A stretch of DNA of 36,780 bases. Source: a virus. The stretch covers positions 1 to 36,780 of IMG/VR virus record IMGVR_UViG_3300027806_001456. One strand, written 5' to 3'. The notes beneath the pieces were generated by a model. The model searched no databases. It was given only the letters and a program-made list of their open reading frames with translations, and had not been told where the DNA came from. Positions 4,570 to 25,685 of this stretch are shown here, one piece after another. The position numbers were made by a program, and so were the translations under genes. Every line of letters starts with the position of its first letter. The stretch's first letter is position 1.

Positions 4570-4686
4570 CCCCGTGGCGGGGTCGGTACGCCGCCCCGCC
4601 CAGGACGCGACGTGGGCCAACGTGGGCGGACCCGTGGCCAACGGTCGAGGCCCGTAGCGGGCGGGAATTGGGGCGTTGAGCGCCCC
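4570..4686. other. Cluster of GC hairpins, possible structured RNA
   Basis: Three perfect short hairpins lie in a row: CCCCG-TGG-CGGGG (4570-4582), GCCCG-TAG-CGGGC (4650-4662) and GGGGCG-TTGAG-CGCCCC (4670-4686). A fourth follows at 4752-4771, with stem CCCGCCG/CGGCGGG. Related CCCGT-containing blocks recur between them. In sequence this rich in GC, short hairpins arise easily by chance, so this is only a candidate non-coding structure. Confidence 0.3.
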
Positions 4687-4828
4687 CGGACGGGCCCGTC
4701 AGCCCGAGCGATTCAACCAACCAGCGATCCAGCCATCCCCGCCCCCCCGGACCCGCCGCATGTGCGGCGGGCCATCACGACGCCCCACGCGCTGGCGCTT
4801 GCCGCCGCGCGTCCGAACGGAGATCGCT

Positions 4829-6205
4829 GTGAACATCGAGACGCTCCCCATCGACGCGGTCAAGGAGTACGACCGCAATCCCCGCACCATCAGCGACGCC
4901 GCCATCGACGCGGTCGCCAAGAGCATCGAAGCCTTTGGCTTCAAGATCCCGATCCTGATCGACGCGGACGGCGTGATCATCGCCGGGCACACGCGTCTGC
5001 GCGCGGCGCGGAAGCTCGGGCTCAAGGAGGTGCCGACGATCCGCGCGGACGACCTCACGCCGGACCAGGTCAAGGCGCTGCGCATCGCCGACAACAAGGT
5101 GGCATCGCTCACCTCGTGGGACATGGAACTGCTGCCCATCGAGCTCGCCGACCTCAAGGGCGTCGACTTCGACCTCGCGCTGCTGGGCTTCAGCGCCGAG
5201 GACCTCGCGGCGATCATGGCTCCCGCCGGCACCGACGGTCTCGTCGACCCCGACGACGTGCCCGCGCCGCCCGACGCGGCGACGACGGTGCCCGGCGACG
5301 TCTGGGTGCTCGGCAACCACCGGCTCATGTGCGGGGACAGCAGCAAGCCAGGAGACCTGGACCGGCTGCTCGACGGGCAGCCGATCCACCTGGTCAACAC
5401 CGATCCGCCGTACAACGTGAAGGTCGAGCCGCGGAGCAACAACGCCATCGCGGCCGGGCTGTCGTCGTTCACGATGGCGCAGCGCAAGGACGCCAGCGCC
5501 GGCGACCAGCAATCGGCCGACCTGCACCGCTACCCGGAGAAGTCCAAGCCGACGCACAAGAAGCTCCGGGCCAAGGACCGGCCGCTGGCCAACGACTTCG
5601 TGTCGGACCAGGAGTTCGACCGCCTGCTCGCGGCGTGGTTCGGCAACATCGCCCGCGTGCTCATCCCCGGCGGCGGGTTCTACATCTGGGGCGGCTATGC
5701 CAACTGCGCCAACTACCCGCCGGTGCTCAAGGCGATGGAGTTGTACTTCTCGCAGGCGGTGATCTGGATCAAGGAGCACCCGGTCCTGACGCGCAAGGAC
5801 TTCATGGGGAACCACGAGTGGTGCTTCTACGGCTGGAAGGAGGGCGCGGCGCACCGGTTCTTCGGCCCCAACAACGTGCCCGACACGTGGAGCATCAAGA
5901 AGGTCAATCCGCAGAGCATGGTCCACCTCACGGAGAAGCCGGTGGAGTTGGCCCGCCGCGCCATCGAGTACTCGTCGCGGCCCGGCGAGAACGTCCTCGA
6001 TCTCTTCGGCGGCAGCGGCAGCACGCTCATCGGCGCGGAGATGACGGGGCGGCGGGCGTTCCTGATGGAACTGGATCCGCTGTACTGCGACGTAATCGTG
6101 CAGCGCTGGGAGAAGTTCACGGGCCGCAAGGCGGAGCGCATGGGCTCAAACGCTGTGGCCGAAGAGAAAGCCGCGACGCGGGTCGCGGCTGGGAGCAAGG
6201 CGTGA
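4829..6205 (+). CDS. ParB-domain DNA methyltransferase (N6-adenine/N4-cytosine)
   Basis: A 458-residue fusion. Residues 1-130 form a ParB/sulfiredoxin-like domain with the signature AGHTRLRAA starting at 52. The rest is a DNA methyltransferase with catalytic motif IV DPPY (192-195) followed much later by SAM-binding motif I DLFGGSGS (391-398). Motif IV before motif I fits the beta-type amino-methyltransferases. The start is GTG 4829, six bases after GGAG (4819-4822). The open frame extends upstream, but there is no ribosome site there and that sequence lacks the ParB pattern. Such fusions are common in tailed phages and prophages, where they mark DNA, usually as orphans that protect against host restriction. 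No restriction enzyme lies beside it. It converges with the minus-strand genes eight bases downstream. Confidence 0.9.
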   Translation: MNIETLPIDAVKEYDRNPRTISDAAIDAVAKSIEAFGFKIPILIDADGVIIAGHTRLRAARKLGLKEVPTIRADDLTPDQVKALRIADNKVASLTSWDMELLPIELADLKGVDFDLALLGFSAEDLAAIMAPAGTDGLVDPDDVPAPPDAATTVPGDVWVLGNHRLMCGDSSKPGDLDRLLDGQPIHLVNTDPPYNVKVEPRSNNAIAAGLSSFTMAQRKDASAGDQQSADLHRYPEKSKPTHKKLRAKDRPLANDFVSDQEFDRLLAAWFGNIARVLIPGGGFYIWGGYANCANYPPVLKAMELYFSQAVIWIKEHPVLTRKDFMGNHEWCFYGWKEGAAHRFFGPNNVPDTWSIKKVNPQSMVHLTEKPVELARRAIEYSSRPGENVLDLFGGSGSTLIGAEMTGRRAFLMELDPLYCDVIVQRWEKFTGRKAERMGSNAVAEEKAATRVAAGSKA

Positions 6206-6213
6206 TGTGCGCC

Positions 6214-6471
6214 TCACTCGTCGAGGGTCGGGAGCGGGCCGTCGGTCGCTTCGTCCCATTCAAGGGCGTAACGCTCGGCGATGTCCTCGATGTCGTGCTC
6301 GGTGAGGTAGTCGGCGGTCTTCCGCTCCTGGCACGCGGCGACGGCCCGCGCGAGGTCCGCCCATTCCTCGATGGTGAGCATCTGGTCCTGGCGTGCGCCG
6401 AGCAGGTAGAGCGCGGCTTGGAGGACGGCTTCGAGTTGCGCTTCGCGGTTGGGGGCGGGCGTCGCGGTCAT
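6214..6471 (-). CDS. Small acidic hypothetical protein
   Basis: An 85-residue acidic protein, predicted mostly helical, with no motif I recognise. It is the last gene of a minus-strand block of five and begins three bases after the stop of the HARE-HTH gene, with a GGAG ribosome site inside the end of that gene. The close spacing implies they are translated from one message and may act together. Its end converges with the methyltransferase gene. Function unknown. Confidence 0.65.
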   Translation of the reverse strand: MTATPAPNREAQLEAVLQAALYLLGARQDQMLTIEEWADLARAVAACQERKTADYLTEHDIEDIAERYALEWDEATDGPLPTLDE

Positions 6472-6474
6472 GGC

Positions 6475-7011
6475 TCAGGCTCCCTTCCCGCGTGGGGGGG
6501 CGACAAAGACGCCGCGCTCGTGCTTCTTGAAGCGTGCGGCCGTTCCCTTGGCGGCGATCTCGCGGATGATCGCTGCGTAGAGCGTGGCCTCGGGCGTCTT
6601 GCCGCCCGGCGAGCGCCACAGGCCCTTGGCCTCCATCGCGGCGATCATGTCCTTGGCCCGCATGGGCACCTCGCTCGCGGCGAGCACCTGCGCGGCCGCG
6701 TCGAGCGCGCTGATCCGCTTGGGCTTGGGCTCCTTGGCGGGCTTCGGGGCCTTCTCGACCTTGGGCTTCTTCCCCTTGGCGGCCGCGGCCAAGTTCGCGT
6801 TGTTGGCCACCTCCTTCTCGCTGGGGACCTCGTGGTCCTGCTTCCCGCCCGCGAGGCGGCCGTTCATCTCCGCGAGCGCCGCCTTGCGGAGGCGCTCGGT
6901 GCTGGACGGCTTGCCCTCGGCCCCGCGCTTCTCCGCCGCGCGGGCCTTCCGAGCCTCGCTCATCTCGCGCTGGACCTTGCCCATGTTCTTGATCGTGCCC
7001 TTGCGTGCCAT
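6475..7011 (-). CDS. HARE-HTH winged-helix protein
   Basis: A 178-residue protein. The first half is highly charged and low in complexity, rich in Lys, Ala and Pro, with repeats such as [10 protein letters not shown]. The second half (about 100-172) reads as a HARE-HTH winged helix: a predicted helix starting [10 protein letters not shown], then [10 protein letters not shown], then the TLYAAI segment and a final GVFVAP strand. This domain occurs in DNA-linked proteins such as the RNA polymerase delta subunit and some restriction and modification proteins. The basic tail plus winged helix suggests a DNA-binding or DNA-modification-reading role, which is inference. The start at 7011 has AAGGAG about eight bases upstream. 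It is opposite in direction to the surrounding structural and replication genes, as phage regulatory genes often are. Confidence 0.8.
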
Positions 7012-7039
7012 GTCGAACTCCTTCAGTCTGGTGCGGAAC

Positions 7040-7090
7040 CCCGCCGCACGCTGCGGCGGGAAAGCGTGGTCGTCGCGGTTCCCCGCGACG
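7040..7090. other. Two adjacent GC hairpins between minus-strand genes
   Basis: CCCGCCGCA (7040-7048) pairs with TGCGGCGGG (7052-7060) over a three-base loop. CGTCGCGG (7071-7078) pairs with CCGCGACG (7083-7090) over a TTCC loop. They sit in the 93-base gap between the 94-residue gene and the HARE-HTH gene. There is no T tract, so they are more likely to pause transcription or shape message stability than to be classical terminators. Confidence 0.5.
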
Positions 7091-7104
7091 CCGCGTGGGG
7101 CGGG

Positions 7105-7389
7105 TCAGCAGCCCGCGATGCGGTCGATCTCGTTCAACACGTCGTGGACCATCGAGTTGGTGGCGGCGGGGCGTCCCTGGCGGTCGGTCCCGTACACGCG
7201 CGTGGCAACGATGCAGGCCTTGGCGTACCTGGCCTCACGGCTCTCGTCGCGGTGGAACTCGGCAACGACCTTGTCGAAGCGGCCCTCCGCGCGGCTCATG
7301 CGGACCACGCTCGCGACCGCACCGTCGTCCGTGGCTCGCACCGTGATGTCTTCCTCGTGGCCCTCGATGACGATGTGCTTGATCTTCAT
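7105..7389 (-). CDS. Small hypothetical phage protein
   Basis: A 94-residue protein with an N-terminal beta-strand pattern (MKIKHIVIEG, then ITVRATDDG) and a helical C-terminal half. No catalytic or metal-binding motif is visible. The start at 7389 is preceded by an AAGGAG ribosome site, and the gene follows the 85-residue gene upstream after 21 bases. The context is a minus-strand block of small early or regulatory phage genes. Function unknown. Confidence 0.65.
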   Translation of the reverse strand: MKIKHIVIEGHEEDITVRATDDGAVASVVRMSRAEGRFDKVVAEFHRDESREARYAKACIVATRVYGTDRQGRPAATNSMVHDVLNEIDRIAGC

Positions 7390-7410
7390 GGCGTGTCTCC
7401 TTGGCGGGGG

Positions 7411-7668
7411 TTACTCGGCGTCGTTCAGGAAGGCCTCGACGTGCTCGCGATCCATCCCGCTCATGAACCCGACCAGGTCGATCAGGTCGCTGCGGACCTT
7501 CCCGAGGTCGCCCGTTCGGCCCCAGTTCTTCGGGTCGGCCTTGGCCGCCTCGGCGTGTTTGTCGAGTTCCATCTGCAGGACGTCGATCAGCCGGGCGATG
7601 TCGTTCTGCCGGGCGGCGTAGGTCTTGGCGGCGGTCGGTTCGGGCGTTGTGGTCTTGCGCTTCGTCAT
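7411..7668 (-). CDS. Small helical hypothetical phage protein
   Basis: An 85-residue, mostly helical protein, with a basic Thr-rich N-terminus (MTKRKTTTPE) followed by amphipathic helices. No known family is recognised. The start codon at 7668 has GAGGAG upstream. It lies between an intrinsic-terminator-like hairpin (7708-7730) on its upstream side and the 94-residue gene on its downstream side, so it may begin its own transcript or depend on read-through. Confidence 0.65.
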   Translation of the reverse strand: MTKRKTTTPEPTAAKTYAARQNDIARLIDVLQMELDKHAEAAKADPKNWGRTGDLGKVRSDLIDLVGFMSGMDREHVEAFLNDAE

Positions 7669-7707
7669 GGTCGTACTCCTCGGGGTTGTGGTTCTCTAGT
7701 AAACAGC

Positions 7708-7730
7708 GAAGCCCGCATGACGCGGGCTTC
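7708..7730 (-). terminator. Terminator-like hairpin after the 117-residue gene
   Basis: GAAGCCCGC (7708-7716) and GCGGGCTTC (7722-7730) form a perfect 9-bp stem with a five-base loop. Its upstream edge overlaps the stop codon of the minus-strand gene that ends at 7729. On the minus strand the stem is followed by GCTGTTTAC, a weak T-rich tail. The shape fits a weak intrinsic terminator that could reduce transcription of the next minus-strand genes. Confidence 0.6.
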
Positions 7731-8082
7731 AGGTCGTCGGGCGGTTGTCGCTGGGGCGGTCCCAACTCGTCGTGTCCTTGGGCTGGCCGACCGCCCGGAG
7801 GTAGTCGATCAGTTCGTCGGCGGTCCAGGTATCGCCGTCGATCGCATCGTGCTCGTTCGGGGCGTCCTCGTTCTCGCGGTCGAGCTCGAAGAGGCGGAAG
7901 CCGCCGAGCGACCCGGGCCGCGGGCCCCAAGCGCCCGTCGGGAGGCGTCCGCGTCCGGCGGGGACCGTCGCGATGTTCCAGCAGCGCCCGTCGGGCGTGT
8001 GGATCTCGATCGCCGGAATGCGGAACCCGCTCTTGGCGAGGGTCATGGCGAGGTCGAGCGTGGTCTTCGTGGTCGCGTTCAT
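7729..8082 (-). CDS. Hypothetical protein, first gene of minus-strand block
   Basis: A 117-residue protein of unknown family. After a helical start it shows a beta-type segment (IPAIEIHTPDG), a Gly/Pro-rich middle and an acidic helical end. The frame is open further upstream to 8199, but the ATG at 8082 has GGAG (bases 8092-8095 on the opposite strand) eight bases away, and the upstream reading lacks protein-like character, so I choose 8082. It is the promoter-proximal gene of the leftward block and is divergent from the packaging operon across a 170-base spacer. Function unknown. Confidence 0.6.
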   Translation of the reverse strand: MNATTKTTLDLAMTLAKSGFRIPAIEIHTPDGRCWNIATVPAGRGRLPTGAWGPRPGSLGGFRLFELDRENEDAPNEHDAIDGDTWTADELIDYLRAVGQPKDTTSWDRPSDNRPTT

Positions 8083-8252
8083 GTTCGTGGTCTCCGTCGC
8101 GGGGTTCCGCCCCGCGTTGTGACACATGAAGCCATGACATCCGCGAACAGGCAAGGCAACCGCGCGAGGATTCGCCGTGAATCTGCCCTTTGTGGGCAAC
8201 TACGCGGAACATGTGGGCAAGTGGCGAAACTGCTTCGCGCGGGAGGTCCGCG
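8083..8252. promoter_or_regulatory. Divergent control region with paired 9-bp repeats
   Basis: This 170-base spacer separates the leftward small-gene block from the rightward packaging operon, so it should hold promoters for both. TGTGGGCAA occurs at 8191-8199 and again at 8212-8220, a start-to-start distance of 21 bases. That is two turns of the helix, as expected for tandem binding sites of a regulator. A hairpin CGCGGGG/CCCCGCG (8098-8104 and 8110-8116) lies just upstream of the ribosome site of the leftward gene. I could not assign -10/-35 boxes with confidence. Confidence 0.5.
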
Positions 8253-8492
8253 ATGACTCCCGAACACGCGCCTAGTTCCGAGCATGCACAGGGAATGTCC
8301 CGGCTCAACCCCGCCGCGCTGGGCGTCGCGGACGCCGCCCGCGTGCTGACGCGGATGGGGGGCAAGCCGGTCACCGAGGAGATGCTCCGCGCCGACATCG
8401 ACGCGGGCGCGCTAACCAACGCCAACGGCACCATCAACCTCGTGCACTACGCCGCGTGGCTCGTAAAGGAGATGTCTGCTGGTGGCGATTGA
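8253..8492 (+). CDS. Small HTH-like protein, candidate small terminase subunit
   Basis: A 79-residue protein beginning at ATG 8253, six bases after GGGAGG (8241-8246). The frame is open upstream to 8190, but there is no ribosome site there. Its fold looks like a small helix-turn-helix: a helix NPAALGVADAARVL, then a G-plus-E-x-x-L step, an AG turn and a final INLVHYAAWLV helix. The same pattern recurs at the N-terminus of the next protein, the large terminase. Placement directly before the large terminase and overlap with it by 11 bases suggest the DNA-recognition (small) terminase subunit. That role is inferred from position and pattern and is not proven. Confidence 0.7.
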   Translation: MTPEHAPSSEHAQGMSRLNPAALGVADAARVLTRMGGKPVTEEMLRADIDAGALTNANGTINLVHYAAWLVKEMSAGGD

Positions 8493-11051: not shown

Positions 11052-11264
11052 ATGCCGGACCCCACCCCCAATCTTGAGCAGGCGATCCGCGACAACGCGG
11101 CTGGTCCAGCCAAGGCAGCGGGTGATTCTGGCAGCGTGGAACAGCATCCGATCCCGCACCAGATCGAGGCGGATCGGTACCTGGCATCGAAGCAGGCGGC
11201 GAAGTCACCGTCGAAGGCGCTGCGCCTGACGCGGCTGATCCCACCTGGCGCGGAGGGCGGATGA
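11052..11264 (+). CDS. Small head protein between terminase and portal
   Basis: A 70-residue, hydrophilic protein rich in Ala, Pro and polar residues, with a central helix (IEADRYLASKQAAK). Position between large terminase and portal matches that of lambda gpW, the head-tail joining protein, but I see no convincing gpW sequence pattern. The start is ATG 11052 with GGAG upstream. Its stop overlaps the portal start (ATGA), so the two are translated together. A role in head assembly is inferred from order only. Confidence 0.7.
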   Translation: MPDPTPNLEQAIRDNAAGPAKAAGDSGSVEQHPIPHQIEADRYLASKQAAKSPSKALRLTRLIPPGAEGG

Positions 11265-12718
11265 TGCTCGGGCTGTTCCGATCCAAGCCGATGCCACCCA
11301 AGCCTCACACCCCCGCGAACGGCGGGCTCATTCGCCGATTGATTCGAGCGGGCTTCGATTCCGCCGTTACGAATGAAGCCAACCGCAAGCACTGGGTCAA
11401 CGCCGACGGTTTGAGTGCGGACGCTGCGGCGTCGCCCGAGGTGCGCCGCACGCTCCGAAACCGTGCGCGATACGAGACCGCAAACAACTCCTTCGCTAAA
11501 GGGATTGTGCTGACCCTCGCCAACGACGTGGTGGGCACAGGCCCGCGGCTGCAACTGCTCACTGAAGACGACGGCGGGAATGAGCGCGTCGAACAGGCGT
11601 TCATGGCGTGGACAAAGGCCGTTGGGCTACCGGAGAAGCTCCGCACCATGCGGGCATCCCGCGCGACCGACGGCGAAGTGTTTGCCGTCCTGAGCAGCAA
11701 TCCGCGCCTCGCAACGCCCGTAAAGCTCGATGTGCGCCTGATCGAAGCCGATCAGGTGTGCACGCCCGACCTGTCGCTCCTGGCTGACAGCGCCGTGGAC
11801 GGCATCGTCTTCGACGAGTTCGGCAACCCAGCCGAGTACCACGTTCTCAAAGGTCATCCCGGCGACACGCGCACCGGGCTCCTGGGGATCGAGTACGACC
11901 GGGTTCCCGCCGAGTCCGTGCTGCACTACTTCCGCGCCGACCGGCCCGGGCAGAGTCGTGGCATACCTGACATCACACCGGCGCTGCCGCTCTTCGCGCA
12001 GCTCCGCCGTTTCACTCTCGCGGTGCTCGGTGCGGCGGAGACCGCCGCCGACTTCGCGGGAATCCTCTACACCGACGCCCCCGCCAACGGAGAGGCCGAG
12101 AGTGTCGAACCGATGGACTCCATCGAGCTCGAGGCTCGATCGCTGCTGACTATGCCGGGCGGCTGGAAGATGGCGCAGGTGCAGGCTGAGCAGCCGAGCA
12201 CGACCTACGCCGAGTTCAAGCGGGAACTTCTCAATGAGATCGCACGGTGTCTGAACATGCCGTTCAACGTCGCGGCGTGCAACTCGTCGGGGTACAACTA
12301 CGCCAGCGGTCGCCTGGACCACCAGGTGTACTTCAAGAGCATCCGTGTCGAGCAGGAGCACCTCGCGTGCACGGTGCTCGACCGCCTTCTGAATGCGTGG
12401 CTCCGCGAGGCGGTGCTGAGTTCCGACCTTCTCCCGCTCGCGGTGCGCACGCTCGTCGCCACCGGGCAGAGCCTGCCGCACCAGTGGTTCTGGGACGGCA
12501 ACGAGCACGTCGATCCCGCCAAGGAGGCGACAGCGCAGGCGACGCGACTGGCGTCGCACACCACAACGTTGGCTGCCGAGTACGCAAAGCAGGGACGCGA
12601 TTGGGAGAACGAGCTCCGCCAGCGAGGCAAGGAGCTGTCGCTGATGAAGGAACTCGGGCTCGCGCAGGAGCAGACCGCTTCGCTCGCGCCCAACGGCAAG
12701 GAGGACGAGGATGCCTGA
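11261..12718 (+). CDS. Portal protein, lambda family
   Basis: A 485-residue protein that forms the dodecameric DNA entry and exit ring at one capsid vertex. The pattern is that of the lambda-type portal family: an early RARYETANNSFAKG segment, then ATDGEVFAVL, then IEADQVCTPD, then the YNYASGRLDHQVYFKSIRVE region late in the protein. Its length is usual for the family. It is preceded by a GGAG ribosome site and overlaps both the gene before it (ATGA) and the protease-capsid gene after it. The assignment is strongly supported by its place between terminase and protease/capsid. Confidence 0.9.
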   Translation: MMLGLFRSKPMPPKPHTPANGGLIRRLIRAGFDSAVTNEANRKHWVNADGLSADAAASPEVRRTLRNRARYETANNSFAKGIVLTLANDVVGTGPRLQLLTEDDGGNERVEQAFMAWTKAVGLPEKLRTMRASRATDGEVFAVLSSNPRLATPVKLDVRLIEADQVCTPDLSLLADSAVDGIVFDEFGNPAEYHVLKGHPGDTRTGLLGIEYDRVPAESVLHYFRADRPGQSRGIPDITPALPLFAQLRRFTLAVLGAAETAADFAGILYTDAPANGEAESVEPMDSIELEARSLLTMPGGWKMAQVQAEQPSTTYAEFKRELLNEIARCLNMPFNVAACNSSGYNYASGRLDHQVYFKSIRVEQEHLACTVLDRLLNAWLREAVLSSDLLPLAVRTLVATGQSLPHQWFWDGNEHVDPAKEATAQATRLASHTTTLAAEYAKQGRDWENELRQRGKELSLMKELGLAQEQTASLAPNGKEDEDA

Positions 12719-14822
12719 CCGCACCCTGAATCTCTGCGCGCCCGTCGAGGGCTGGATCGAGGCCGCGCCCCCGACAGGCGACGGGCAGGCCCCGAGTCTC
12801 CGCCGCTTCTCGATGGTGGCGTACACCGGCGGCCCAATGGTCATCGCCGGATGGCCGCACCCCGTGGTCGTGGATCTCGCGGGGATGCAGGTCGCAGGGG
12901 GCGGGCTCAAGAGCCGCCCGATTCTCAAGGACCACAACCGGTCGCTCATCGTCGGGCATACCGACGCGGTCAGGATTGAGGGTGCGCAGCTTCTGGTCTC
13001 CGGAGTCATCTCCGGAGCGGGCCCGGTGGCACGCGAGATCGTGGACAGCAGCCGCAACGGGTTCCCGTGGCAGGCGTCGCTTGGAGCGGTTGCCGGGCAG
13101 ATGGAGTACGTGCACAAGGGCAAGAAGGCCTCGGCCAACGGCCGCGAGTTCGAGGGTCCGGTGCTCATCGCGCGCAAGAGCACCCTGGGCGAGGTGAGCT
13201 TCGTGGCTCTGGGCGCGGACGACAACACGAGCGCAGCTGTGGCCGCCGGGGCGGTTCCGCCCCGACAACCAGTCAAGGAGGACGGCATGACGTTCGAGCA
13301 GTGGCTTGAGGCCAAGGGCTTTGACCCCGCATCCCTCACCGAAACCCAGAAGATCAGTCTCGAGGCCATGTTCGATGCCGAGCGCACGAGTGGCACGCCT
13401 GCACCCGGCGACGGAGCGGGCGAGAACACGGACGTGATCGCCCGCCTTCGCGCCGAAACCGTGGCCGAGACGAAGCGCATCGCCGAGATCCGGCGCATCT
13501 GCGCGGGCGGGGCGACTGGCGGCAACAAGCACGCCGAGATCGAGGTCCAGGCGATCGCCGAAGGGTGGGATGCTCCAACAACCGAACTCGCGGTGCTCCG
13601 CGCCGAGCGCCCGGCCCTGGCGTTGGGTGGAGTCCGCCGTGACGCGGACCCTGCTCACGCCGGGCGTGCGATGGAGGCGGCGCTCTGCCTGTCGGCGGGC
13701 ATCCCCGAGGAGACCGTCGGCAAGTGGTATGACCAGCGAACCATGAACGCCGCGCTGTCGGGCAGGCTTCGCAACGCTGGCCTGCACAGCCTGCTGTCGT
13801 ACGCCGTTGAGGCCGCGGGCGGTTCTTTCCGCTCGTACCACGTGGACAACGAGTTCATCCAGTCGGCCTTCGAGGCCAACACGGTTCTGCGCCGGCGGGA
13901 GCGGGAGATCCGAGCATCCAGCGGATTCACGACCATCTCGCTGTCGGGCATCCTCTCGAACGTCGCCAACAAGACCATGCTCGCGGCCTACACCGCCGTC
14001 GAGAGTGTCGTGAGCACGTTCTGTGCCGAGACCGATGTGGGTGACTTCAAGGAGGTGACCCGCTACCGGCTCACGGGCACGGGGGTGTTCGAGAAGGTCG
14101 GTCCCGACGGCGAACTCAAGCACGCCGGTCTGTCGGAGCAGGCGTACTCGAACAAGGTCGAGACGTACGGCAAGATGTTCGCGCTGAACCGGCAGATGAT
14201 CATCAACGACGACCTGGGGGCGTTCCTCCAGATCCCGCGCATCATCGGTCGCATGTCTGCGCTCAAGCGCGAAGAGGCGGTGTTCGAGCTGCTCCTGGCG
14301 AACCCCGCGAACTTCTTCAGTGTCGGCAACAAGAACTTCATCTCGGGCGCAGCCACCAACCTGAGCATCGACTCTCTCACGCAGGCCGAGCAGGCGTTCC
14401 TGGATCAGACGGACGCGGACGGCAAGCCCATCCTGCTCATGCCGTCCGTGCTCCTTGTGCCGTCTGCGCTCAAGGTCACCGCGCAAGTGCTGATGACCGA
14501 GACGCGGATCAACGAGACGACCACGGCGGACAAGGGCAAGCCCGCGGTGAACCCGCACGCGGGCAAGTGGAAGCCGGTTGCGAGCCCGTACCTCAATGCT
14601 CAGGGCTTGGCCGGGGGCAGCGCGAAGGCGTGGTACCTGTTTGCCAACCCGGCGGACGTTGCCGCGATCGAGATCGCGTACCTGCGCGGCAAGCGCACGC
14701 CCACCATCGAGAGCGGCGATGCCGACTTCAACCAGCTCGGGATGCAGTGGCGCGGTTACTTCGACTTCGGCGTCGCCATGCAGGACTCCCGTGCTGCCGT
14801 CAAGAGCAAGGGTGAGGCGTAA
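12711..14822 (+). CDS. Prohead protease fused to major capsid protein
   Basis: A 703-residue fusion. Residues 1-190 look like a prohead serine protease: a conserved His in LKDHNRSL (H75), a second His in IVGHTD (H83), and the likely nucleophile Ser123 in PWQASLGAV. Residues 193-290 are charged and helical, like a scaffolding (delta) region. The rest resembles a Mu gpT-like major capsid protein, with segments such as FALNRQMIINDDLGAF and the final MQWRGYFDFGVAM. A near-perfect ribosome site, AAGGAGG at 13275-13281, precedes an in-frame ATG at 13287 (Met193), so the scaffold-capsid part can also be made separately and in excess. The protease would then mature the shell by removing the scaffold segment. 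The fusion is evident in sequence; the two-product model is inference. Confidence 0.88.
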   Translation: MPDRTLNLCAPVEGWIEAAPPTGDGQAPSLRRFSMVAYTGGPMVIAGWPHPVVVDLAGMQVAGGGLKSRPILKDHNRSLIVGHTDAVRIEGAQLLVSGVISGAGPVAREIVDSSRNGFPWQASLGAVAGQMEYVHKGKKASANGREFEGPVLIARKSTLGEVSFVALGADDNTSAAVAAGAVPPRQPVKEDGMTFEQWLEAKGFDPASLTETQKISLEAMFDAERTSGTPAPGDGAGENTDVIARLRAETVAETKRIAEIRRICAGGATGGNKHAEIEVQAIAEGWDAPTTELAVLRAERPALALGGVRRDADPAHAGRAMEAALCLSAGIPEETVGKWYDQRTMNAALSGRLRNAGLHSLLSYAVEAAGGSFRSYHVDNEFIQSAFEANTVLRRREREIRASSGFTTISLSGILSNVANKTMLAAYTAVESVVSTFCAETDVGDFKEVTRYRLTGTGVFEKVGPDGELKHAGLSEQAYSNKVETYGKMFALNRQMIINDDLGAFLQIPRIIGRMSALKREEAVFELLLANPANFFSVGNKNFISGAATNLSIDSLTQAEQAFLDQTDADGKPILLMPSVLLVPSALKVTAQVLMTETRINETTTADKGKPAVNPHAGKWKPVASPYLNAQGLAGGSAKAWYLFANPADVAAIEIAYLRGKRTPTIESGDADFNQLGMQWRGYFDFGVAMQDSRAAVKSKGEA
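13275..13289 (+). promoter_or_regulatory. Internal ribosome site and start for the capsid protein
   Basis: AAGGAGG (13275-13281) stands five bases before ATG 13287, in the same frame as the protease-capsid gene. It begins just where the protease domain ends, so it would yield a 511-residue scaffold-plus-capsid product. This resembles the nested scaffold genes within phage protease genes such as lambda C/Nu3, except that here the capsid protein itself follows in the same frame. Confidence 0.7.
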
Positions 14823-14896
14823 TGCCGGAGCAGGTCGAGTTCGAAGGCGGGATCGGGATCGAGCCAGGCGGAGAGCCCGGCACAGGAGGTTCATTC

Positions 14897-15235
14897 ATGC
14901 CAGCGAAGTTCATTCAGGATGGTGCAGCGCTCGATTACACCCCGGGAGCGGACACGCCCGCGGGCACGATCGTGGTGCAGAGCGAGATGGTCGGCGTCAC
15001 GCGAGTAGACCTCAAGGCGGGCCAACTCGGCTCGCTGGCGGTCACCGGCGTCTTCGAGTTCCCCAAGGCTCTCGGCGCGGGAAGCGCCATTCCCATCGGG
15101 ACTCTGACGTACTGGGACGCGGGGGCCCAGGTTGCCACCAAGAACGCAGCGGCCGGTGCCAACAAGCTGATCGGCAAGTGCATCAAGGCCACCGTCGACG
15201 CGGACACGGTCGTCCGCGTGCGCCTCTCGCAGTGA
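14897..15235 (+). CDS. DUF2190-type capsid decoration protein
   Basis: A 112-residue beta-rich protein with the feel of the DUF2190 family: FIQDGAALDYTPGAD near the start, then GTLTYWDAGAQVATKNAA and a final VRVRLSQ strand. Members of this family sit directly after major capsid genes and stabilise or decorate the shell. The frame opens at an ATG at 14822 that overlaps the capsid stop, but that leader is Gly/Glu-rich and unlike the family. ATG 14897 has a perfect AGGAGGT (14884-14890) six bases upstream, so I prefer it. The upstream ATG may serve coupling or give a longer form. Confidence 0.8.
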   Translation: MPAKFIQDGAALDYTPGADTPAGTIVVQSEMVGVTRVDLKAGQLGSLAVTGVFEFPKALGAGSAIPIGTLTYWDAGAQVATKNAAAGANKLIGKCIKATVDADTVVRVRLSQ

Positions 15236-23264: not shown

Positions 23265-24171
23265 GAACCAATCCGACATCGCGGCGCTGCAGGCTGGGCT
23301 CAAGGCGCGCAAGCCCGCGCGTGATGGCCTGCGCCTCTACACCGCCCCGCCGACGTTCGAGTCGGTGTCCCTCAGCGGGTTCTACCGGAACCGGTCCGCG
23401 TTCCTCGTGCTCTCCGGGCCGTCGCTCAAGCAGATCGATCTGTCACTGCTGGACGCCCGCGGCATCGTCACGATGGCCGTCAACAACGCGTGGTCGGTGC
23501 GGCGTCCGACGCTCTGGACCTGCGTGGACGACCCCGGGCGGTTCATCGATGTGGGCTGGAAGGACCCGGGCATCCTGAAGTTCGTGCCGACCTGCATGTG
23601 GGACAAGCGGCTGAAGGTGATGAACCCCGACGGCACGCTCCGCAGCAGCGCCTTCAAGGTCCACCAGATGCCGGGCGTGCTGTTCTTCCGCCGCAGCGAT
23701 CACTTCGACCACGAGCGATTCCTCACCGGGGACACGGTCTCATGGGGCAACGACGCGAAGAACCCCGACTCGCTGGGCATCACCGGCAAGCGCTCGGTCA
23801 TGCTCGTCGCCCTGCGTTTGCTGCACTACCTCGGGTTCTCGACGGTGTACCTGCTCGGCTGCGACTTCAAGATGGACGCGGAGCGGAAGTACGCCTTCGA
23901 CGAGCACCGGGCGCAGAACGCGATTCGGCACAACAACGTGCTGTATGACTCGCTGGCGCGGCGGTTCGAGGCCCTCAAGCCGCACTTCGAGAAGCACCGC
24001 TTCCGCGTGGTGAACTGCTCGCCGGACAGCGCCCTGGAGGTCTTCGAGAAGATGGCCTTCGAGGACGCGGTAAGGGCGGCGTCGTCCGAGTGCGGCAAGC
24101 CGATCCGCACCGACGGCTGGTACGAGCCGAATCCCAAGACGAGCGCCCCGCAGCAGGAGGCCGCACGATGA
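23242..24171 (+). CDS. GT42 (CST-I-like) / DUF115-type glycosyltransferase
   Basis: A 309-residue protein resembling the fold shared by GT42 sialyltransferases (Campylobacter CST-I type) and the DUF115/Maf family. Visible landmarks are a nucleotide-binding-like LSGPSLKQID (G59-P60-S61), a NNAW segment (N81-N82), a CVDDPGRF segment, and a C-terminal YLLGCDFKMD followed by a YAFDEH motif and RVVNCSPDSAL. CST-I has equivalent GPSLKEID and YLSGIDF elements. DUF115 enzymes of the Maf type attach sugars to Ser/Thr of flagellin. Which donor or acceptor applies here is unknown. Start choices are ATG 23242 or GTG 23257; the latter is seven bases after a GGGGGGT stretch. The stop overlaps the HINT gene (ATGA). 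Confidence 0.7.
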   Translation: MGGAAVRENQSDIAALQAGLKARKPARDGLRLYTAPPTFESVSLSGFYRNRSAFLVLSGPSLKQIDLSLLDARGIVTMAVNNAWSVRRPTLWTCVDDPGRFIDVGWKDPGILKFVPTCMWDKRLKVMNPDGTLRSSAFKVHQMPGVLFFRRSDHFDHERFLTGDTVSWGNDAKNPDSLGITGKRSVMLVALRLLHYLGFSTVYLLGCDFKMDAERKYAFDEHRAQNAIRHNNVLYDSLARRFEALKPHFEKHRFRVVNCSPDSALEVFEKMAFEDAVRAASSECGKPIRTDGWYEPNPKTSAPQQEAAR

Positions 24172-25685
24172 GCGACGGCCCCACACGGTACTACCTCTAC
24201 ATCCCGGTCTGGGCAACGGGACGTGCTCCGCAGGGCGGCGGATCGAGCAACTACTCGACGCCGTCGGGCTCGACCCCGGAGAGCACGTACTCGACGCCGA
24301 CGAGCACGCCGAGCATGCCGCCAAGCTACTCGACGACCGGTGACGTGATCTACACGACCGGCCCGGGCGGCACGCCGACGCTGACGTTCTACACCACCGG
24401 CGCGTTCACGAGCAACACGCCGGGGACGACGCACACGCCCTCGAGCAGCGGCCCAATGTCGTCGAGCGGGATGACGACGAACTCCTCGCAGACGCCGACG
24501 AGTTCGCAAACGCCATCGAGCACAGGCTCGTCTGGCATGAGCAGCTCGGGCATGAGCAGTTCCGGCGGCGGGAGCTCGTCCGGCGCGTCGAGCGGGATGT
24601 CATCCGGGGCGAGTTCGGGCGCATCGTCGGGCATGTCCTCCGGTGGCAGTTCCGGTATGTCCTCGGGCGGGTCATCCGGAGGTTCGTCGGGCGGCGGCTC
24701 GTCCGGAGGCGGGTCTTCGGGTGGCGGCGGATCGAGCGGTGGTGGCAGCGGCCCCGGTGGATCTGGCCCCGGCGGCTCCGGGCCTGGCGGCTCGGGGCCG
24801 GGTGGTTCTGGCCCGGGTGGCAGCGGTCCCGGTGGCTCCGGCCCCGGCTCCAACTGCGTGCTCGCGGGCACGCCCGTGGTGCTGGCGGACGGATCGATCA
24901 AGCCGGTCGAGGCGCTCCAGCCGGGCGACCGCGTTGCGGCGCTCGACGTGGCGGGCCTGGATCGCGACGTGCCGTGGCGTGCGCAGTATCAGTGGCTCCG
25001 ACCCTGGGCCGAGGCGGCGCTCACGCCCGTCACCGGCACCGTCGGAAGCGTGAAGCTCGGCACACACGAAGGCTTCATCGCCATCAACGGCCGTCTGCGA
25101 CTCACGCCGGAGCACCCGGTGCTCTTGAAGCGCAACGAGGAGATCGGCTTCGCGTCGGCGGAGTTCGTACAGGTCGGCGATTGCCTCGTGCGGCAGGACC
25201 TGAGCGAGGAGCTGGTCGAGACGGTCGAGCGGTCAGGCATGCGCGTCACCACGGTCGCGGTGCATGTGCCGGGCCTGAACGTGTTCCTGGCGGGCGGCGT
25301 GTGGATCCACAACGACATGCCCGCGACGCAGCAGAGCAGCTCGGGCTCATCGTCGGGATCGGGCTCGAGTTCCGGTTCTGGCTCCGGCTCGTCGAGCGGC
25401 AGTGGCTCCGGCAGCGGCAAGTCCAGCGGCTCGTCGATGTCGAGTTCTGGATCCAGTTCCGGATCGAGCTCCGGCAGTTCGTCAGGCTCTTCGAGCGGCA
25501 GCGACAGCGGCTCGGGCCCGCCCGGTTCCGGCTCGGGCTCCGGCAGCGCCCAGCAGTCGGTGGCGCTCGGCGCGGGCGCATCGTCCTTCATTGAGGGCGG
25601 CATGGAGGGTGTGCCGCCTGCGAAGTGGCAGCAGAGCGGCGTGGGCAGTCTCAGTAGCGGCATCGAAGAGGAGGCAAAGGCGTGA
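24168..25685 (+). CDS. Ser/Thr/Gly-rich repeat protein with intein-like HINT domain
   Basis: A 505-residue protein in three parts. Residues 1-229 are low in complexity: first Ser/Thr/Pro-rich (mucin-like), then Ser/Gly-rich, then six tandem GPGGS units (195-224). Residues 230-382 form a HINT domain: block A starts at Cys230 (CVLAGTPVVLADGS), the TPEH motif is at 313-316, and the end is GGVWIHN with H381 and N382. The next residue is Asp383, not the Cys/Ser/Thr of a true intein, which points to a bacterial intein-like (BIL) or pretoxin-type HINT. Residues 383-505 are again Ser/Gly-rich, with no toxin domain visible. No signal peptide is seen. The start is ATG 24168 (ATGA overlap). It is probably a surface or appendage protein, possibly self-cleaved and O-glycosylated by its neighbours; both are inference. 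Confidence 0.85.
   Translation: MSDGPTRYYLYIPVWATGRAPQGGGSSNYSTPSGSTPESTYSTPTSTPSMPPSYSTTGDVIYTTGPGGTPTLTFYTTGAFTSNTPGTTHTPSSSGPMSSSGMTTNSSQTPTSSQTPSSTGSSGMSSSGMSSSGGGSSSGASSGMSSGASSGASSGMSSGGSSGMSSGGSSGGSSGGGSSGGGSSGGGGSSGGGSGPGGSGPGGSGPGGSGPGGSGPGGSGPGGSGPGSNCVLAGTPVVLADGSIKPVEALQPGDRVAALDVAGLDRDVPWRAQYQWLRPWAEAALTPVTGTVGSVKLGTHEGFIAINGRLRLTPEHPVLLKRNEEIGFASAEFVQVGDCLVRQDLSEELVETVERSGMRVTTVAVHVPGLNVFLAGGVWIHNDMPATQQSSSGSSSGSGSSSGSGSGSSSGSGSGSGKSSGSSMSSSGSSSGSSSGSSSGSSSGSDSGSGPPGSGSGSGSAQQSVALGAGASSFIEGGMEGVPPAKWQQSGVGSLSSGIEEEAKA
24750..24839 (+). repeat. Six tandem 15-bp units encoding GPGGS
   Basis: Units start at 24750, 24765, 24780, 24795, 24810 and 24825, with a partial seventh (GPGS) after them. 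Each encodes Gly-Pro-Gly-Gly-Ser, but the codons differ between units (for example TCT, TCC, TCG and AGC for Ser). The amino-acid repeat is therefore perfect while the DNA repeat is degenerate, which suggests selection on the protein rather than recent duplication. Confidence 0.95.

Follow-up and report, generated by a model that had tools for sequence, protein, structure and literature searches.

An internal start codon at the protease-scaffold join of phage protease-capsid fusion genes, conserved across lineages and predicted to give a separate capsid protein

Here, we report that a protease-capsid fusion gene in a virus record of 36,780 bases (the window) carries an in-frame start codon with a Shine-Dalgarno (SD) sequence where its protease part joins its scaffold-like part, at a position conserved family-wide. 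The gene is very likely dual-coding in one frame, specifying both a protease-scaffold-capsid chimera and the scaffold-capsid protein alone; the two products would co-assemble, and the protease would cut the linker and scaffold. The features of the locus are as follows (window coordinates and strand).

11261..12718, +, portal gene (phrog_21, 208 bits)
12698..12704, +, SD sequence AAGGAGG of the full-length start, 6 nt ahead of ATG 12711, in the end of the portal gene
12711..14822, +, full-length protease-scaffold-capsid open reading frame, 703 aa (open frame; best NCBIfam match, NF045541)
12783..13259, +, protease domain, residues 25 to 183 (T4 gp21/herpesvirus protease fold match; phrog_3244; invariant His75 and Ser123)
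13254..13286, +, linker, variable and disordered, holding the internal SD (pLDDT below 50 at residues 182 to 191; alignment)
13275..13281, +, internal SD AAGGAGG, 5 nt ahead of ATG 13287
13287..13289, +, internal start codon ATG, codon 193
13287..14822, +, predicted second product, scaffold plus major capsid protein, 511 aa (phrog_4523 and phrog_133 over the capsid part)
13293..13910, +, scaffold-like, helix-rich region, about residues 195 to 400 (AlphaFold model)
13917..14813, +, HK97-fold capsid domain, about residues 403 to 701 (PF25209; capsid fold matches)
14822..15235, +, head decoration protein gene, next in the operon (phrog_122, 60 bits)

The portal stop codon (12716-12718) overlaps the fusion-gene start at 12711. 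Phycisphaerales genome contigs are among the window's nearest relatives, and the 16S rRNA genes of two Phycisphaerales genomes have the 3' end GGATCACCTCCTTT, an intact anti-SD. An Rfam scan of the window returned no RNA elements. Elsewhere in the window, a complete Hma defence system adjoins the phage genes (27272-36592, +; PADLOC models HmaA, 1983 bits; HmaB, 1265 bits; HmaC, 1392 bits), and a 1214-aa open frame in the primase-terminase interval (4612-8256, +) is without a PHROG or Pfam match. Past the tail genes (24090-25685, +) lies a weak match, below cut-off (E 0.0006), to a Hint domain, which is of self-splicing or autoprocessing type.

A sequence-only reading of this DNA had proposed that one frame spans protease, scaffold-like and capsid parts, and domain searches and structure predictions agree. 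The NCBIfam profile NF045541 (prohead protease/major capsid protein fusion protein) matched residues 34 to 701 (profile positions 9 to 633 of 634) at 293.6 bits, short of its curated cut-off of 525 bits; judged by sequence, the protein is a distant relative of that family and, by the cut-off, not a member. PHROG 4523 (major head and protease protein) covered both protease and capsid (E 1e-76, residues 70 to 701), and Pfam PF25209 (capsid) matched residues 403 to 699 (152.5 bits). An AlphaFold model of the whole protein (68 relatives; mean pLDDT 84) showed a beta-rich N domain, helices from residue 195 and an HK97-fold capsid. The capsid part is an HK97-fold major capsid protein, its model matching phage capsids with Z up to 15.8 in fold comparison. 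Modelled alone (pLDDT 89), the N domain resembled the T4 capsid protease gp21 (Z 11.1, rmsd 2.8 over 125) and herpesvirus proteases (Z 8-10); with His75 and Ser123 invariant in 56 sequences, it is, as modelled, probably an S78/herpes-like prohead protease with conserved His and Ser. PF04586 gave no match in the 703-aa protein at E 0.001 and was present in 7 of 68 relatives; among solved structures, there was no close sequence match to the fusion. Residues of about 195 to 400 are scaffold-like, a role assigned by analogy with HK97-type capsids that have an N-terminal scaffold domain; in HK97 and T5, the scaffold is fused to the capsid N terminus (PMC10275583).

The internal ATG had been described as preceded by AAGGAGG and placed exactly at the join, and both points hold: it is codon 193, its SD (13275-13281) stands at 5-nt spacing, and in the AlphaFold models the last protease strand (174-177) is followed by a low-confidence stretch (182-191) and the first scaffold helix (195). 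ATG 13287 thus falls on the first residues after the linker, and its 511-residue product would equal a complete scaffold-capsid protein.

Met193 is located in a linker that varies in sequence and length, and the start is kept. Among 96 relatives reaching the join (first set; identity down to about 35%), an ATG lay no more than 10 codons from it in 93, and 91 had an ATG with an SD of at least 4 nt at proper spacing, against 95 of 2591 control windows (3.7%) in the same genes, the SD scoring being simple and ad hoc and the counted loci related. Other downstream in-frame ATGs of these relatives had an SD in 97 of 929 cases (10%). After thinning to less than 60% identity, ATG and SD were present at the join in 40 of 43 relatives; there the SD core was written through 23 different dipeptides and occurred in each of the three codon phases, so that nucleotides, not residues, look like the conserved thing. 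A second set of 74 relatives, chosen by portal patterns, had ATG and SD at the join in 56 cases, against 48 of 1809 control windows; GTG replaced ATG in the same column in three (L204, L241 and L269) and stood two codons ahead of the conserved ATG column in three more. By this sequence evidence, the gene is a candidate nested in-frame head gene like lambda C/Nu3, with a conserved internal start and ribosome-binding site.

Codon-level analyses were less decisive. An SD of at least 4 nt was seen in 98% of cases versus 76% expected given the amino acids, and the combined synonymous-shuffle test was not significant, with ties counted against and a partly circular control. An apparently extreme codon constraint at Val188-Lys189-Glu190, where same-residue pairs all share a codon, was downgraded to weak support because AAG makes up 95% of Lys codons and GAG 84% of Glu codons in these genes. 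mRNA structure around the start was weak in the relatives (on average, 7% of random same-gene sites were easier to unfold), and the window's own start region at 13287 was moderately open (28% easier).

It has been suggested that ribosomes slow down on SD-like stretches, and the site could on that basis be a pause or handover point letting the protease fold ahead of scaffold synthesis, with no initiation; a pause would require neither a start codon (ATG or GTG) at a set spacing nor an mRNA that is weakly structured around that codon, and we regard this as very improbable.

Three further groups of fusions had the same arrangement. Among Rhodobacter-type fusions (RcKemmy, other isolates and about 80 contigs), ATG and SD occurred at the join in 29 of the 30 sequences left after thinning at 80%; among control windows, the figure was 65 of 779. 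In RcKemmy, this ATG is codon 215. ClpP-type fusions (Pseudomonas F10, Escherichia coli LLS, Fels-1 and 80 contigs) have an unrelated protease (PF00574) and a homologous capsid; here, ATG and SD were found at F10 residue 220 in all 83 sequences (20 of 20 after thinning, against 33 of 541 control windows). Pseudomonas phage JBD68 and E. coli phages mEp043 and LLS have the counterpart of F10 codon 220. An AAGGAGG ahead of F10 Met185 was set aside, as it falls within the ClpP domain and only some of the relatives retain it; the conserved site is Met220. Small actinophages (n = 12) had ATG or GTG with an SD past the protease in nearly all cases, Berka being an exception and the join judged by eye. 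In Arthrobacter phage Decurro, the internal start is placed at codon 160. Distant single cases with an internal start were Paenibacillus Pd_22F, Synechococcus MinM1 and Bordetella PBb002. In the database records examined, the gene is annotated from the protease start only. By sequence comparison, the internal start is thus common to most of the protease-capsid fusions examined and not peculiar to this phage.

In five or so relatives, portal and fusion share one stop-free frame of about 1190 to 1250 codons, some ending at a contig edge.

L195:1495-5052 (= L093), triple-fusion frame
L196:1495-4023, triple-fusion frame
L106:864-4463 (close to L200), triple-fusion frame
L197:1381-5046 (= L110), triple-fusion frame
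L199:1375-5127, triple-fusion frame
L200:1498-3690, triple-fusion frame

On these assembled contigs, an SD-preceded ATG stands at both joins in L195, L196 and L106/L200 and at the protease-scaffold join only in L197 and L199. As the portal is needed in 12 copies and the capsid in hundreds, separate starts would be hard to dispense with in triple fusions.

The internal start can be lost, it seems, since in two relatives of the first set (L054 and L074) the linker is short and the join lacks a start, and ten of the second set (L217, L219, L230, L232, L236, L254, L258, L260, L263 and L272) have no evident start there. Such lineages seem either to assemble from the fused form alone or to initiate elsewhere, and are useful natural controls. 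In two other relatives, Methanoculleus virus L4768 (L112) and Streptomyces phage Frankenweenie (L280), protease and capsid are separate genes with a small gene between them.

These start-less lineages, in which all-fused assembly seems possible, speak for the reading that the 703-residue protein is the only product. On that reading, the protease of every copy cuts itself off as the particle matures, and neither Met193 nor the SD-like stretch is more than incidental or conserved for the protein. Lys-Glu and Glu-Glu codons do give SD-like letters, but a near-universal ATG and SD written through so many dipeptides and every phase, the GTG replacements in the start column, and recurrence with the unrelated ClpP protease and at portal joins make a single product improbable. 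Because this start persists in distant relatives whose proteases differ, such "fusion genes" very probably yield free capsid protein as well as capsid protein joined to the protease, and the separate capsid product anticipated from 13287 is well supported, as a prediction, by modelled structure and deep conservation.

On the reading we favour, dual coding, initiation at 12711 would give the chimera, and initiation at 13287 a free scaffold-capsid protein corresponding to HK97 gp5. This short product should be enough for a shell, as HK97 procapsids form from portal and capsid genes alone (PMC10275583). Through their common scaffold-capsid part, chimera and short product would co-assemble, the chimera bringing protease into the procapsid; each procapsid would thereby come with copies of the protease already built in and need no separate targeting signal. 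Once the particle is assembled, the protease would cleave linker and scaffold. What the analysis establishes is the reading frame, its domains and the start site with its conservation; start use, co-assembly, cleavage and product ratio are what we infer. The internal start is most likely the capsid gene's original one, retained when the stop codon that separated the protease gene from the capsid gene disappeared.

The sequence-only reading had further suggested that protease-linked copies are few and capsid copies many. On the predictions above, two products are very likely; the skew did not find the same backing, as the same AAGGAGG precedes ATG 12711 (at 6 nt, versus 5 nt for ATG 13287) and the internal SD is therefore not the stronger. 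Over 87 relatives, mean SD match was 5.1 nt upstream and 5.6 nt internally, and a search for an internal SD clearly stronger than the upstream one was negative. An output low in protease-linked and high in capsid copies is still plausible. The internal start may instead be used to give both products in similar amounts, the arrangement being a by-product of gene fusion and no device for keeping protease low. The equal motifs, the similar mean SD strengths and the easier opening of the upstream start in the window (11.8 versus 14.2 kcal/mol) agree with this; against them, the extra capsid product seems to matter, given how long the internal start has been maintained, and ribosomes arriving from upstream may add to the use of 13287. 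We consider similar amounts possible but rather unlikely.

Nested in-frame head genes are known from lambda, Mu and herpesviruses, and the likeness drawn earlier to lambda C/Nu3, with direct fusion to the capsid added, is apt. Lambda C/Nu3 and Mu I/Z likewise have a shorter in-frame product beginning inside the protease gene; in those phages, the inner start yields scaffold alone and the capsid has a gene of its own, whereas here the inner product includes the capsid. HK97 gp5 has the scaffold-capsid plan of the product from 13287, but HK97 encodes protease (gp4) and capsid (gp5) separately. Herpesvirus UL26/UL26.5 shares the protease fold and a nested in-frame shorter product; unlike the inner product here, UL26.5 is made from its own transcript and excludes the capsid protein. 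The protein's best matches, the fusions of NF045541/NF045540 and PHROG 4523/133, have the same domain order and a homologous capsid and are described as a single fused protein, the internal start being unmentioned in their names or in the related papers found.

Protease-capsid fusion itself is of a known kind, named by NCBIfam and SEA-PHAGES, and the internal start looks new: in the open-licence literature, we found no report of a nested start releasing the capsid itself in such fusions, across unrelated proteases. We lean toward the broader view that tailed-phage protease-capsid "fusion proteins" are generally dual-coding, in that fusion to an S78-like or ClpP-like protease, or even to the portal, would be tolerated only as the downstream parts keep their own starts; the main capsid precursor would then be shorter than annotated and the protease a minority chimera in the shell. 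Recent papers remarking on capsid and protease in one gene (PMC13313380) leave unasked how a shell forms with a protease on every subunit, to which a conserved internal start would be an answer. For many phages, such a start would mean a corrected annotation of the capsid precursor, and cultured phages of Pseudomonas, E. coli K-12, Rhodobacter and Arthrobacter would allow direct tests of protease dosage and targeting.
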